DNA of 64,000 bases from Marinobacter nanhaiticus D15-8W. GTDB taxonomy: Bacteria; Pseudomonadota; Gammaproteobacteria; Pseudomonadales; Oleiphilaceae. Numbering within the stretch: position 1 is the stretch's first letter; each line of letters starts with the position of its first letter. A program made the position numbers and the translations under genes. Below the pieces are notes generated by a model. That model was not told the DNA's origin and did no database searches. It worked only from the letters and a program-made list of their open reading frames with translations. The stretch lies in the NCBI RefSeq assembly GCF_036511935.1, contig NZ_AP028878.1, positions 4,154,001 to 4,218,000 on the forward strand, written 5' to 3'. This document shows, piece after piece, positions 424 to 39,003 of the stretch.

Positions 424-669
424 GCGCCTGTCGGCGCCTCCGAAGCTGAAGAGGGTGTTGCAAAACGTAGCGAGCGAAGGCTAGGCAAGGCGGAAATTCG
501 CGAAAAAGCGCAGTTTACTGGTAGTAAATGAGCATTTTGAGCGAATTTCCAACGCCGCATGGCCGAGCGCAGTAGTTTTGCAACACCCTCTGAAGCGTCG
601 GCTACATTTTTCGGAACCCTCGAGCGTGTAGCAGATGCTTTAGCTTCTGAGTAGCCCGCAGGGCTACCG
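424..669 (-). repeat. Dispersed imperfect palindromic repeat, interrupted by a 140-bp insertion
   Basis: Bases 424-450 and 591-669 together form one copy of a repeat that occurs in opposite orientation at 38.6-39.0 kb. When the 140 bases between them and one TGAA are removed, the joined sequence CTCCGAAGCTGAAGCGTCGG matches the reverse complement of the 38.76-kb copy exactly. Similarity continues through CTCGAGCGTGTAGCAGA and AGCTTCTGAG. The two halves of the repeat are roughly complementary, so RNA from it could fold. No protein is likely here; open frames crossing it are incidental. Confidence 0.85.
451..590. mobile_element. 140-bp palindromic MITE-like insertion with TGAA target duplication
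   Basis: The element begins GAGGGTGTTGCAAAAC (451-466) and ends with the exact reverse complement (575-590). The interior is also an imperfect palindrome (GGAAATTCGC near 492 pairs with GCGAATTTCC near 541) closing on TTTACT-GGT-AGTAAA at 514-528. It carries no gene. TGAA lies directly on both sides (447-450 and 591-594), and the empty site is seen in the repeat copies at 38.6-39.0 kb. This fits a non-autonomous element moved by a transposase elsewhere. A structured-RNA or REP-like role is also possible. Confidence 0.8.
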
Positions 670-768: not shown

Positions 769-2037
769 GTGCGAAAAACCAACCGTTTTTGGGCCAGGCG
801 CCGCCTGCTGCCCCTCGTCCTTATTGTTATCGCGATTGCGGTCGTGGTGGCGCTGTTCAGGCTCAAGCCTGCACCTCCCGAAGCCACGGCCGAAGAAAAG
901 GCCTGGCCTGTCCAGACCTCGGTGATCGAATCCGCCGCACGCTCGCCGCAACTACGTTTGCTGGGCCGTATCGAGACTCCCTACCAGTCCACCCTGAGCG
1001 CCGCCGTTACGGCTAATGTCGAAGCCCTACCGGTGCTCGAAGGCCAGGCGGTCGACCAGGGCGATATCATCATCGAACTGGAAGACACCGAAGTGGAACT
1101 GCTGCGGGCGCAGCGCCAGGCCGATGTGAACGAACTGCAGAGCCAGATCAAGCAGGAACAGAACCAATTCAAGGCTGACCAACGCCTACTGGAGCGCGAA
1201 AAGGCGCTGGTCGCTATTTCACAGCGCGCGCTGGATCGTGAAAACCGCCTGGAAGCTTCCAACCTCAACAGCCGTGCCCGTATCGACCAGGCTCAACAGG
1301 CCCTGCAGTCCGCGGAAATTTCACTGGTGAACCGGGAGCTGGCGGTCGCCAATCACGAAAGCCGGCTGCAATCCCTTGAGGCCCGTCTGGCTCGGGCTAA
1401 GGCCCTACTCGAGCAAGCCAAGCTCGACCTGGAACGCACTTCAATCCGGGCGCCCTTTGCTGGCGTGGTCACTGACATTCAGGTCAGCCCCGGTGAGCGG
1501 GTACGTCCCGGTGAGGTCCTGGCAAGCCTCTATGCCACCGACAACCTGGAAGTACGCGCCCAGATCCCCATGCAGCGCGTGGGTGTGGTCCAGCAAGCCC
1601 TGGCTGACAAGGCCAGCCTGACCGCGACCACATCGATCACGGGCGATCCCTACGAACTCCTGCTGGCCCGACTTTCCGGCCAGGTCAATCCGGGGGCCGG
1701 CGGTGTGGATGGCTTGTTCCGGTTTGCCGACGAAACACCGTCCGCCGCCCTGAACCGCACGCTGGACCTGACCCTGGAACTGCCGCCGCAGTCCAACCTG
1801 TTTTCCGTACCGGTCTCGTCATTGTACGACGAGCACACGCTATACCGTATCTCCGAAGGCAGGCTCGAGTCGGTCGATGTGACGGTCGTCGGTGATCGCT
1901 TTGGCGACGGTCGTCAGAGCCTGCTCGTGCGTTCCAAACAACTCAAGACCGGCGATCGTATTCTCACCACTCAGCTACCCAACGCCATCAGCGGCCTCAA
2001 GGTCACCGTGATGAATCCGGGAGCCGACCATGGCTGA
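769..2037 (+). CDS. RND efflux periplasmic adaptor (membrane fusion) subunit
   Basis: The 422-residue HlyD/AcrA-type adaptor would link an inner-membrane RND pump to an outer-membrane channel. A basic N-terminus and one hydrophobic segment (about residues 12-30) make a membrane anchor with no lipobox. Residues ~75-105 are the first lipoyl half, ~110-225 a long coiled-coil hairpin rich in Q, E, R and L, followed by the second lipoyl half (SIRAPFAGVVTDIQVSPGER) and a beta-barrel domain. The start is GTG at 769 with AGAG upstream. Its last 8 bases overlap the pump gene, which implies translational coupling. Substrate is unknown, and no outer-membrane partner is adjacent. Confidence 0.88.
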   Translation: MRKTNRFWARRRLLPLVLIVIAIAVVVALFRLKPAPPEATAEEKAWPVQTSVIESAARSPQLRLLGRIETPYQSTLSAAVTANVEALPVLEGQAVDQGDIIIELEDTEVELLRAQRQADVNELQSQIKQEQNQFKADQRLLEREKALVAISQRALDRENRLEASNLNSRARIDQAQQALQSAEISLVNRELAVANHESRLQSLEARLARAKALLEQAKLDLERTSIRAPFAGVVTDIQVSPGERVRPGEVLASLYATDNLEVRAQIPMQRVGVVQQALADKASLTATTSITGDPYELLLARLSGQVNPGAGGVDGLFRFADETPSAALNRTLDLTLELPPQSNLFSVPVSSLYDEHTLYRISEGRLESVDVTVVGDRFGDGRQSLLVRSKQLKTGDRILTTQLPNAISGLKVTVMNPGADHG

Positions 2038-5000
2038 AGATCCCGGCCAACACCGTAACGACATCCTCGGCCGTTTCGCCCAACACAAGGTCGCCGCCAA
2101 CCTGCTGATGCTGATCATGCTGCTGGCGGGCATCTATGCCCTGAGCGGCCTGAACCGCCAGTTCCTGCCCAACTTCGCCACCGACTTCATTACGGTCACC
2201 GTGGTCTGGCCCGGCGCCAGCGCCGAGGACGTGGCCCGTTCCATCACTACGCCGTTGGAACAGGAGCTGCGCAATCTTGATAACGTGAAGGAGATGCGCT
2301 CCACCTCTACCCTCGGCTACGGCAACATCGTAATCGAGTACGAGGAAGGCACGGACATGGGCATCGCCCTGGACCAGGTGAACGAGCATGTCGGCCTGGT
2401 GCGCAACCTGCCCAGCGATGCCGAACGCCCGGAAATCAGCAAGTATATCCGCAACGAACCGATCGCCACGGTCATCCTCACCGGCCCCGCCCGCCTTGAA
2501 GCCCTGCGTCCCATGGCCTACCGCTTCGAGGACGAACTGCTCAACCGCGGGGTCGCGAAGGTCGAGCTGACAGGGCTACCCGATCGGGAAATTGCCATCG
2601 AGGTGGACAGCGAAAACATCGCTGACCTGGGAATGTCGCTGCCTCAACTGGGCCAGCGTATCGTTGGGCAGAGCCAGGACATACCCGCCGGCACTGTGGG
2701 CGATGAGGAATCCGCCCGTGAAATCCGCAGCCTGGAAAAGGGGCGCACCGCTAGCCAGTTCGCCAACATGGCCATCATGACCACGGCGGATGGACGACGC
2801 CTGACCCTGGGCGATGTGGCAGAGATCACCCTGCGCCCCAAGGACGATGCGGTCGAAGTCTTTTATCAGGGCCAACCCGCCGTGCTCATGCAACTTCAGC
2901 GGGCGGAAACCAGCGACGCCCTGAATTCTGCAGGGATCATGCAGCAATGGCTGGGGGATACGCGCCCGTCGCTGCCCCAGGATATCCAGCTCATCGTGTT
3001 CGACGAGCAGTATGAGCTGATCGTCGACCGTATCAACCTGCTGCTGAAGAACGGCATCGGCGGACTGATCCTGGTCGTCGGCATCCTGTTTATCTTCCTC
3101 AACGGCCGCATTGCCTTCTGGGTAGCGGCGGGTATCCCTATCTCGTTCATGGGTACGTTGGCGATCCTCTGGATGAACGGCGGCAGCATCAACATGGTCA
3201 GTCTGTTCGCGCTGATCATGGCTTTGGGGATTATCGTCGACGACGCTATCGTCGTGGCGGAAGACGCCATGACCCACTACCAGCGCGGAGAGCGATCGCT
3301 GCAGGCTGCCGAGGGCGGTGCGCGACGGATGTTGGTGCCGGTCATGAGTTCGTCGCTGACAACCATTGCCGCCTTCCTGCCGCTGATGCTGGTGAGCGGG
3401 ATCATCGGTCAGATTTTGCGGGATATTCCCTTCGTGGTGATCTGCGTGATCATCGCGTCGCTGATCGAGAGCTTCCTGATCCTCCCCGGGCACCTGCGGT
3501 CCTCGTTCCACAAGCACCACCATCGGGAGGAAGGCCCATTGCGCAAGAAGCTGGACCGGGGATTCAATCGCTTCCGCGACAATTATTTCCGGCCCATGGC
3601 AGAGTGGAGCCTGAGCAACCGGGGCACGGTCATCGTGGCTACGGGATGTGCGCTGTTGATCAGCCTGGCCATCGTCGTTTCCGGACATGTCCGTTTCACC
3701 TTCTTTCCCACCCCGGAGTCATCACGCATTGTTGCCAGCGTTAAATTCGCGGCCGGCACACCGCCTTCGGACGTAAAATCCTACGGGCGCTTAATGGAAG
3801 ACATTCTCTGGGAGACGAACAGTCAGTTGAAGGACGAGCGCGACCTCGTGAAAGTGGCCGTGCTGCAACTTAATCGCGGGTCATTCGACGGTGGCGTCTC
3901 CATCGAACGCGGCGAACAGTACGCCATGGTGACCGTGGAGCTGGTCACACCGGATGCCCGCAGCGTGCGCAACCCCGAATTTATCGCCGCCTGGCGCAAG
4001 GCCTTGCCGCAACTGGCGGGTGTAGAGCAACTATCGATTACCAGCCCCCAAGGCGGCCCACCGGGCAAACCGCTCGACGTGTTCATTTCCGGGGCCGATG
4101 CCGCGACGCTGAAGGATGCCGCCGAATCCCTGAAAGAAGACCTGCGCAATTACGAAGGCGTCACCGATATTCTTGACGACCTGCCCTACGGCAAGCAGCA
4201 GTATATCTTCACCCTGACTCCCCTGGCGCAATCCCTCGGTCTGACCATCGATGATGTTGGTCGTCAGATGCGGGCTGCGTTGGATGGTCAGCTGTTGCAG
4301 GTCTTCTATGACGCCCACGACGAGGTGGAGGTGCGGATCATGCTGCCGGAGGCCGAACGCAACCTGCAGCGTACGCTGGACACGCTCCCCATCGTCACGC
4401 CGACGGGAGACACCACACCACTCGCCAACGTCATCAACCTGGAATCCCGCCGTGGCCTGGCATTGTTGCGTCATACCGATGGTCAGCTGGGGGTCCACGT
4501 TACCGCCGATGTGGACCCGACCGTGACCAACGCCAACCAGGTGATTGCCGATCTGCAGCAGGATGCCATCGACGAACTGGAGAGCACGTACGGCGTGAAC
4601 ACCCGCTTCGAAGGCAAGGCGGAAGAGCAACGGGAGACGGGCCAGGACATGATGGCGGGAGCCTTGATTGGCCTGGCACTGATCTACATCATCCTGGCGT
4701 GGGTCTTCGGCGCCTATACCTGGCCCCTGGCGGTGATGATCGCTATTCCCTTCGGCCTGTGCGGCGCCATCCTGGGCCATTTATTGCTCGGCATCGACCT
4801 GACCATCCTGTCTCTGTTCGGTATGTTCGGCCTGTCCGGCATCGTGATCAACGACTCGATCATCCTGGTGACCTTCTACAAGGAACTCCGGGCCGGCGGC
4901 ATGCCCGTGCGTGAAGCGCTGGTGGAGGCGGCCTGCCAGCGTCTGCGTGCAGTGCTGCTGACGTCACTGACCACCATCAGCGGGCTGCTGCCTCTCTTGT

Positions 5001-5185
5001 TCGAGACCTCCCTGCAAGCCCAGTTCCTGATTCCCATGGCGGTGAGCATCGCCTTCGGCCTGGCGGTGGGTACCTTCCTGATCCTGCTGGTGGTACCGGT
5101 ATTGCTATCGCTGATCGAGGGCGCTTCGAACCGCCTGCAACGGGCGAGGGACAATCGCGCAAAGATCTCCGAACAGCAAGGCTGA
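2030..5185 (+). CDS. RND-family efflux transporter, inner-membrane pump (AcrB/HAE-type)
   Basis: The 1051-residue protein has the full RND architecture: 12 membrane helices and two large periplasmic loops. Helix 4 carries the proton-relay pair in GIIVDDAIVVAEDA. The equivalent helix-10 segment reads GIVINDSIILVTFYK, so the lysine of the classical AcrB GLSAKNAILIVEF motif is replaced. This sets it in the 'VND' subgroup rather than with AcrB/MexB. It overlaps the adaptor gene by 8 bases, and no outer-membrane factor follows, so a TolC-like channel encoded elsewhere is probable. Export of toxic compounds or lipids is an inference; substrate cannot be read from sequence. Confidence 0.9.
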   Translation: MAEDPGQHRNDILGRFAQHKVAANLLMLIMLLAGIYALSGLNRQFLPNFATDFITVTVVWPGASAEDVARSITTPLEQELRNLDNVKEMRSTSTLGYGNIVIEYEEGTDMGIALDQVNEHVGLVRNLPSDAERPEISKYIRNEPIATVILTGPARLEALRPMAYRFEDELLNRGVAKVELTGLPDREIAIEVDSENIADLGMSLPQLGQRIVGQSQDIPAGTVGDEESAREIRSLEKGRTASQFANMAIMTTADGRRLTLGDVAEITLRPKDDAVEVFYQGQPAVLMQLQRAETSDALNSAGIMQQWLGDTRPSLPQDIQLIVFDEQYELIVDRINLLLKNGIGGLILVVGILFIFLNGRIAFWVAAGIPISFMGTLAILWMNGGSINMVSLFALIMALGIIVDDAIVVAEDAMTHYQRGERSLQAAEGGARRMLVPVMSSSLTTIAAFLPLMLVSGIIGQILRDIPFVVICVIIASLIESFLILPGHLRSSFHKHHHREEGPLRKKLDRGFNRFRDNYFRPMAEWSLSNRGTVIVATGCALLISLAIVVSGHVRFTFFPTPESSRIVASVKFAAGTPPSDVKSYGRLMEDILWETNSQLKDERDLVKVAVLQLNRGSFDGGVSIERGEQYAMVTVELVTPDARSVRNPEFIAAWRKALPQLAGVEQLSITSPQGGPPGKPLDVFISGADAATLKDAAESLKEDLRNYEGVTDILDDLPYGKQQYIFTLTPLAQSLGLTIDDVGRQMRAALDGQLLQVFYDAHDEVEVRIMLPEAERNLQRTLDTLPIVTPTGDTTPLANVINLESRRGLALLRHTDGQLGVHVTADVDPTVTNANQVIADLQQDAIDELESTYGVNTRFEGKAEEQRETGQDMMAGALIGLALIYIILAWVFGAYTWPLAVMIAIPFGLCGAILGHLLLGIDLTILSLFGMFGLSGIVINDSIILVTFYKELRAGGMPVREALVEAACQRLRAVLLTSLTTISGLLPLLFETSLQAQFLIPMAVSIAFGLAVGTFLILLVVPVLLSLIEGASNRLQRARDNRAKISEQQG

Positions 5186-38593: not shown

Positions 38594-39003
38594 AGGCGCC
38601 TTCGGCGCCTCAGAAGCTGAGGCTTCTGCTACACGCTCGAGTTATCTGGCAAATGTAGCCGACGCTTTAGCTTCGGAGCAGCCGTCAGGCTGCTGGATAC
38701 CAACGACCAGGCTCAGCGGTACTTCATCTTCAGTCCTTCGTTACTTAGGCACCTCCGGCGCCTCAGAAGCTGAAGCTTCTGCTACACGCTCGAGTTACTT
38801 GGTGAATGTAGCCGACGCTTCAGCTTCGGAGCAGCCGCCAGGCTGCCGGATACCAACGACCAGGCTCAGCGGTACTTCATCTTCAGTCCTTCGTTACTTA
38901 GGCACCTCTGGCGCCTCAGAAGCTAAAGCTTCTGCTACACACTCGAGTTATCTGGCAAATGTAGCCGACGCTTTAGCTTCGGAGCAGCCGCCAGGCTGCC
39001 TGA
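38594..39003. repeat. Tandem 153-bp repeat, about 2.7 copies
   Basis: CCTCAGAAGCTGAGGCTTCT-type starts recur at 38608, 38761 and 38914, exactly 153 bases apart. Each unit contains an imperfect palindrome (AGAAGCTGAAGCTTCTGCTAC against GTAGCCGACGCTTYAGCTTC) followed by a unique-looking spacer; the third copy stops after about 90 bases. The array fills the gap between the 133-residue gene and the moaA end (convergent), so it may terminate or protect transcripts. The repeat family also occurs, broken by an insertion, at 424-669. Short open frames inside it are not genes. Confidence 0.85.

Follow-up and report, generated by a model that had tools for sequence, protein, structure and literature searches.

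The interiors of MITEs are usually thought to drift while their ends are kept. In the available part of one account, bacterial MITEs are short elements with no gene, bounded by terminal inverted repeats and flanked by target duplications (PMC10969869). Insertion into REPs is known already from autonomous ISs of the IS3, IS110, IS4, IS256 and IS5 families, and for REP-specific ISs such as ISPsy8, ISRm22, ISPpu9/10 and others every copy lies at one REP position; ISPsy8 and ISRm22 insert at the REP symmetry axis with 3- and 6-bp duplications (PMC1525189, available part). Inverted-repeat targets are also known already for the IS1182 family: the autonomous staphylococcal IS1272 replaces a stem-loop and leaves no duplication, and in one branch of its model, 'pathway c', only the loop is duplicated (PMC5678879, available part). 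The REPs themselves include a GTAG-tagged type, described in the available text as GTAG adjoining a short stem-loop, also found as dimers (PMC3733652).

Here, we describe a palindromic element inserted into a REP within a window of 64,000 nucleotides from Marinobacter nanhaiticus D15-8W, this window being the whole stretch of DNA that was analysed. As far as our searches go, IS1182-type MITEs that duplicate REP loops are new, as is a MITE core kept across many different ends. A literature search by sequence text and by terms found no description of the core family, which is weak evidence, sequence being rarely given in text. Among the papers listed for short strings of the sequence, most were, to judge by title, on unrelated human or animal subjects. 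The features of the locus are as follows.

29-367, RNA methyltransferase gene, a neighbour
439-446, plus strand, left stem arm of the interrupted REP hairpin, TCCGAAGC (flank comparison, fold)
447-450, plus strand, left copy of the target duplication TGAA, the REP hairpin loop (sequence, flank comparison)
451-590, plus strand, MITE of core type 1, 140 bp (sequence, inverted ends, fold)
451-466, plus strand, left terminal inverted repeat, GAGGGTGTTGCAAAAC (self-comparison)
466-575, plus strand, hairpin core of 110 bp, found in the order with many other ends and having a covarying structure (core model)
575-590, minus strand, right terminal inverted repeat, an exact inverted copy of the left (self-comparison)
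591-594, plus strand, right copy of the target duplication TGAA (sequence, flank comparison)
595-602, plus strand, right stem arm of the interrupted REP hairpin, GCGTCGGC (flank comparison, fold)
631-650, plus strand, the other REP of the pair, inverted (REPIN-like doublet), differing from the consensus at 3 positions (REP search)
769-5185, membrane-fusion and AcrB-type efflux pair, neighbours
38658-38677, plus strand, uninterrupted REP, loop TTTA (REP search)
38811-38830, plus strand, uninterrupted REP, loop TTCA, an exact match of the restored target (REP search)
38964-38983, plus strand, uninterrupted REP, loop TTTA (REP search)

A preliminary description of the window had reported a 140-bp palindrome with perfect 16-bp ends between TGAA flanks, and this is borne out at 451-590. 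As single-stranded DNA, the 140-mer has a predicted fold of -42.2 kcal/mol (z = -8.7 against 200 dinucleotide shuffles). The only ORF of at least 100 aa over the element is a 158-aa frame on the minus strand, taken as a chance ORF. An Rfam scan of positions 300-800 of the window gave two matches, both far below gathering. The element has the features by which MITEs are recognised: it is short and non-coding, has terminal inverted repeats, and occurs in several copies at different loci with target duplications. Its ends are also common to autonomous elements, namely IS1182-family ISs in two other genomes (G361 and G341), not in its own. The same description held that removing the element plus one TGAA restores the sequence of the other repeat copies exactly. 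This is true of the 20-bp REP palindrome (TCCGAAGC-TGAA-GCGTCGGC, the complement of 38811-38830); the surrounding repeat of about 100 bp matches the three copies at 38.6-39.0 kb only approximately.

This surrounding repeat consists of two inverted REPs, one interrupted by the element (439-602) and the other at 631-650. The REP unit has GTAG beside an imperfect stem, CCGACGC/GCTTCGG, with a 4-nt loop, and judged by its sequence looks like a GTAG-type REP. In the predicted fold of the empty target site TGAA lies in the loop; with the element inserted, the REP stem outside it is predicted still to pair. For the uninterrupted 20-bp REP, allowing up to 3 mismatches, this genome has 268 matches, and filled sites make up roughly one ninth of the total when counted by 20-bp match.

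The genome of 5.4 Mb (two contigs) contains 68 matches to the 16-mer end at up to 2 mismatches, compared to 1 for the reversed control. Both ends could be placed for 35 elements, of which 15 have core 1 and are 140, 142, 156 or 157 bp long. The other 20 have a second palindromic core, rich in CTCTCCC, and measure 204-291 bp or, in the eight with a nested IS481-like IS, 1.5-1.6 kb; in DNA searches neither core retrieves the other. The genome holds about 40 instances in all, the count of 35 omitting five with an end missing or split by contig ends (1303419, 1583997, 3653867, 5074405 and 5336573/contig start). By eye, the first four have REP-like flanks and the fifth not clearly so. Another match, at 3361529, was judged a chance match.

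All 35 placed elements sit at the centre of a REP. The REP flanks show at most 3 mismatches over 20 bp in 33 of them; L089 and L105 go over this limit solely because their right flank is shifted by one base. The duplicated 4 bp are the REP hairpin loop, and the two copies are identical in 27 elements (TGAA/TTCA in 16, TAAA/TTTA in 11). At these 27 sites, stem complementarity averages 5.8 of 8 pairs when centred on the duplication compared to at most 3.9 at other offsets within 12. The preliminary description had named genomic copies lacking direct 4-bp flanks as evidence against its reading, and eight such copies exist; we read their point changes, one-base shifts or hybrid flanks as mutated or hybrid forms of the same site. 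In three elements (L067, L071 and L083) the flanks are mutually inverted rather than direct, exactly in L071 and exactly or nearly so in the others, a pattern expected from recombination between copies or from one hairpin arm being copied to the other.

Like the REP-specific ISs (PMC1525189), this MITE lies at one REP position in every placed copy of its own genome; it differs in being an IS1182-type MITE, since neither MITEs nor IS1182 appear in the available part of that account. With IS1272 it shares inverted-repeat targets and, probably, an IS1182-family transposase, but where the available text has IS1272 replacing a stem-loop, the MITE duplicates the loop (PMC5678879). The target resembles the GTAG-tagged REPs in sequence, the REP here being the target and not the element (PMC3733652, available part). 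The element was also considered as a 20-40-bp GTAG REP or REPIN in its own right and rejected, being 140 bp long with long inverted ends and its own duplications. IS1182-type MITEs thereby join the REP users found in print, and the 35 loop insertions offer a clean natural example of the loop-duplicating branch that the available text proposes, and does not show, for hairpin targeting in the IS1182 family.

An exact match to the 15-mer end is present in 7 of the family's 163 genomes, including 5 of 6 of the genus, and in 20 of the 390 sampled across the order. Outside the own genome, 25 of 26 distinct pairs were placed, 24 from congeners and one (L180) from another genus (G006); L194 was omitted, having no duplication at its right end. 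Eleven one-ended matches were also left out, of which L182, L324 and L328 have REP-like flanks by eye and the other eight do not. Among the 25 placed relatives, 17 are inserted in REPs or in hairpins resembling them; the remaining 8 lie elsewhere and have imperfect duplications or ones such as TGGA and GTGT. The possibility raised at the outset, that the unit always occurs inside this repeat in all relatives, fails on these eight, and the element is therefore no fixed part of the REP. In G001, which has 5 REP-like matches (2 for the reversed control), neither of two element pairs is in a REP. These placements show that the element is separate from the REP; it prefers REPs where REPs are common.

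Core-1 copies with these ends in other families have the duplications TAAA, CTAA, TGAA, TTAA, TTTA and CCAA; of 20 core-1 copies measured outside the congener list, 19 are 137-141 bp long and the other 212. Broadly, the target of these ends is mostly (T/C)NNA, a rule broken by TTCT (L394), TTTCT (L378) and GTGT (L329). Outside the genus, several copies with these ends occur at sites that lack a stem (3 of 8 pairs in L484, 1 of 8 in both L502 and L507), and the congeneric non-REP copies L332 and L329 show 2 of 8 stem pairs; a hairpin is therefore not obligatory. Among the 80 loci listed, out of at least 120 stretches of viral contigs with the 15-mer end, there was no credible pair. In L378, L394 and L395, from another family of the order, the same GAGGG ends surround a third palindromic core, AACCACAGAGACACGG..., and L394, less clearly L395, lies inside a palindrome of the CCCATGC..GCGTGGG type.

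Candidates for the transposase came from a DUF772 search of 12 genomes, which led to IS1182-family ISs. Those of another family of the order carry the ends of the element, at 16 of 16 and 14 of 16 bases. More specifically, G361 has two copies of 1708 bp, bounded by GAGGGTGTTGCAAAACCG and GAGGGTGTCGCGAAACCC; each lies within the palindrome CCCACGC-TCT-GCGTGGG and has a duplication of 5 bp, not 4. The 540-aa protein of one copy scores 296 bits against the NCBIfam IS1182 cut-off of 270. G341 has a 1722-bp copy with a TAAA duplication, assigned to IS1182 by its DUF772 match only. In a comparison by eye only, the ends of the MITE and of the G361 ISs match, and the IS interiors begin differently. 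In the genus, the searches turned up no IS1182 carrying these ends, two short G005 fragments (C66, C46) lying outside the comparison, and we infer from the ends that the driver is of this type and is absent from the genus or undetected there. The preliminary description had suggested a MITE mobilised from outside; the 4-bp duplications, the copies at other places in congeners and other genera, and IS1182 elements with the same ends elsewhere in the order all support it. Its remark that neither the transposase nor a 4-bp target rule was evident now has a partial answer: the ends belong to the IS1182 type, and the target is the REP hairpin loop.

The IS1182 elements of the genus itself were rejected as partners, having other ends (GAGGCTGTAGAAAAA), the duplication AAC and another target. 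Five copies are in the own genome, and a G005 fragment (L533) also has the end GAGGCTGTAGAAAAA. AAC/GTT is duplicated in 11 copies (L408, L412, L416, L418 and L419 in the own genome; L406 and L407; L528-L530 and L534), and for seven own-genus copies the flanks were read and give AAC|GC as the target, a site which we take to resemble integron attC sites.

The IS481-like IS of the own genome is present in 11 nearly identical copies (L101-L111) of 1309 bp, with a 405-aa transposase scoring 209.5 bits against NCBIfam IS481, just under the cut-off of 224. Ten of the 11 copies lie in CTCTCCC-rich palindromes, eight of these between GAGGG ends. It was first taken as the partner because it stands between GAGGG ends in units of 1523-1602 bp. 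It was then rejected, with its own TGTGCAA...TTGCACA ends, which differ from the terminal repeats of the element, and its own 3-bp duplications, as merely nested in eight elements.

We consider it likely that the element at 451-590 is a non-autonomous palindromic MITE that was mobilised in trans by a DDE transposase of the IS1182 family, one not found in its genome, and inserted into a REP with duplication of the loop, and that its core belongs to an order-wide lineage apparently served by different transposases. The starting points, observed directly, are the ends, the duplications and their place in the loop, the two cores that share one kind of end, and IS1182 elements elsewhere in the order whose ends are of this kind. 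From these, we infer an IS1182 enzyme as the mover. Such a transposase would recognise the GAGGGTGTTGCAAAA ends and join them across a 4-nt stagger, in this genus mostly at the two edges of a 4-nt REP hairpin loop. Joining at both 5' sides of the loop would duplicate the loop alone, and the REP stem outside the inserted hairpin would still be able to pair. The transposase may recognise the hairpin or cruciform itself.

Alternatively, REP loops may be chosen for their sequence (a GC-TTYA-GC core), or insertions may survive in them as harmless places, with no part played by hairpin recognition. We give this reading somewhat less than an even chance: non-REP insertions often have (T/C)NNA duplications yet poor stems, and among the own copies the REP sequence is nearly uniform, leaving stem and sequence inseparable, but the G361 IS1182 copies use an unrelated palindrome and IS1272, of the same family, uses inverted-repeat targets without shared sequence (PMC5678879, available part). 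It is very improbable that the unit belongs permanently to a composite REP element and was multiplied with the REP rather than inserted into it. Although each placed own copy is inside a REP, the genome also has the uninterrupted REP matches counted above, the relatives outside REPs and the G001 pairs contradict such a reading, and 134 of 381 genomes contain the same core, which has different flanks in those copies that were read. Equally hard to credit, if not more so, is movement of these elements by the IS481-like IS through its 405-aa transposase; its place between GAGGG ends in 8 of 11 copies does give units of 1.5-1.6 kb, mostly with REP-loop duplications, but the IS is 1309 bp long in 11 of 11 copies, makes 3-bp duplications (one reads as 4) and is also found at other places.

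In a database comparison, the middle of the element was found with other ends in plasmids of Halomonas and Pseudomonas and in a phage, and the core matches that carry names are mostly Pseudomonas and Halomonas. A 110-bp core model built from 12 copies (E up to 1e-4, at most 10 candidates scored per genome) matches the 134 of 381 genomes sampled from the order, in 68 of 138 genera. We examined 90 core copies from 46 genomes, taken from the best scorers listed and leaning towards well-kept cores. Their ends are paired (at least 11 of 15 bases) in 69 (68 with slightly different shifting), and clear paired ends are absent in 21. Ends agree at 12.0 of 15 bases within a copy compared to 7.1 between random copies, where 8.7% of end pairs reach 11 of 15.

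For 2228 between-genome pairs of copies with paired ends, mean identity is 75% in the core (5-95%: 66-85), a figure raised by the choice of copies by core score, compared to 46% in the ends (23-77), and in 95% of the pairs it is the core that shows the higher identity. Greedy clustering at up to 4 mismatches gave 22 end-types, a rough count: 10 have at least two copies and 12 are single copies, some types are shifted forms of others, and the largest cluster (21) mixes types with different duplications. Cluster representatives average 74% identity in the core and 39% in the ends, the second value being low in part because of how the clusters were formed. Tested jointly for ends and duplication, 24 of the 90 copies pass, some evidently by chance. 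In clear cases the duplication follows the end-type: mostly (T/C)NNA with GAGGGTGTTGCAAAA and near forms, TTAA with GGAACCTCTGAATAA, CTAG with GGCTCTGTACGAAAA and AAGCTGTTTCATAA, and TCA with GAGGGTGTTTACAAA. Of these end-types, GAGGGTGTTGCAAAA is the one that was compared with particular ISs.

The available account of bacterial MITEs (PMC10969869) mentions no core kept under changing ends, which is seen here. We read the core as one old MITE lineage that changes its transposase, an IS1182-type enzyme inserting it into REP loops in the present case. On the simplest view, this is an old palindromic MITE, and its two ends have on several occasions changed in concert to suit different IS1182-/IS5-like transposases. 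More tentatively, and at well under an even chance, we propose that one order-wide palindromic lineage keeps its hairpin core while both ends change together to successive transposases with different duplication rules, the driver in this genus being a loop-duplicating, hairpin-aimed IS1182 type. We hypothesize that the ends, as arms of one hairpin, are copied from each other (quasipalindrome correction) and can change together because of this, allowing the element to switch drivers, as an ordinary transposon cannot. A core more alike than its ends offers a natural way to test how elements without genes persist after the enzymes moving them are gone.

The core hairpin covaries. Across copies and an alignment both fitted by the model, and so leaning towards structure, 98.2% of cells are paired compared to 81.7% when shuffled and 34.5-39.2% when slid, and both sides are changed in 454 cells against 121. 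Mean entropy is 0.64 bits for unpaired bases and 0.70 for paired ones. G.T pairs number 146 (about 85 of them at one pair) against 22 A.C. At the core pair in columns 50/70 of alignment A2, 85 of 89 distinct copies have G.U, which a pure DNA palindrome would not usually show.

The main rival to an end-changing MITE is the capture of a functional hairpin by different ends: the core would be a structured RNA or regulatory hairpin under selection for a host or element function, while ends come and go. We regard this as unlikely, though the strong covariation, the conserved unpaired bases and the surplus of G.T over A.C, a hint that one RNA strand is constrained, speak for it. The copies were picked and aligned by a model that itself favours G.U, however, the 20 core loci scanned against Rfam gave no family at gathering score, and core copies have transposon-like features, with the paired ends described above and some clear duplications.

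A diverged copy of the element also lies at the junction of the own chromosome contig, which is cut inside it (C1:5336573 to contig start); the break is probably only the point at which the circle was opened.
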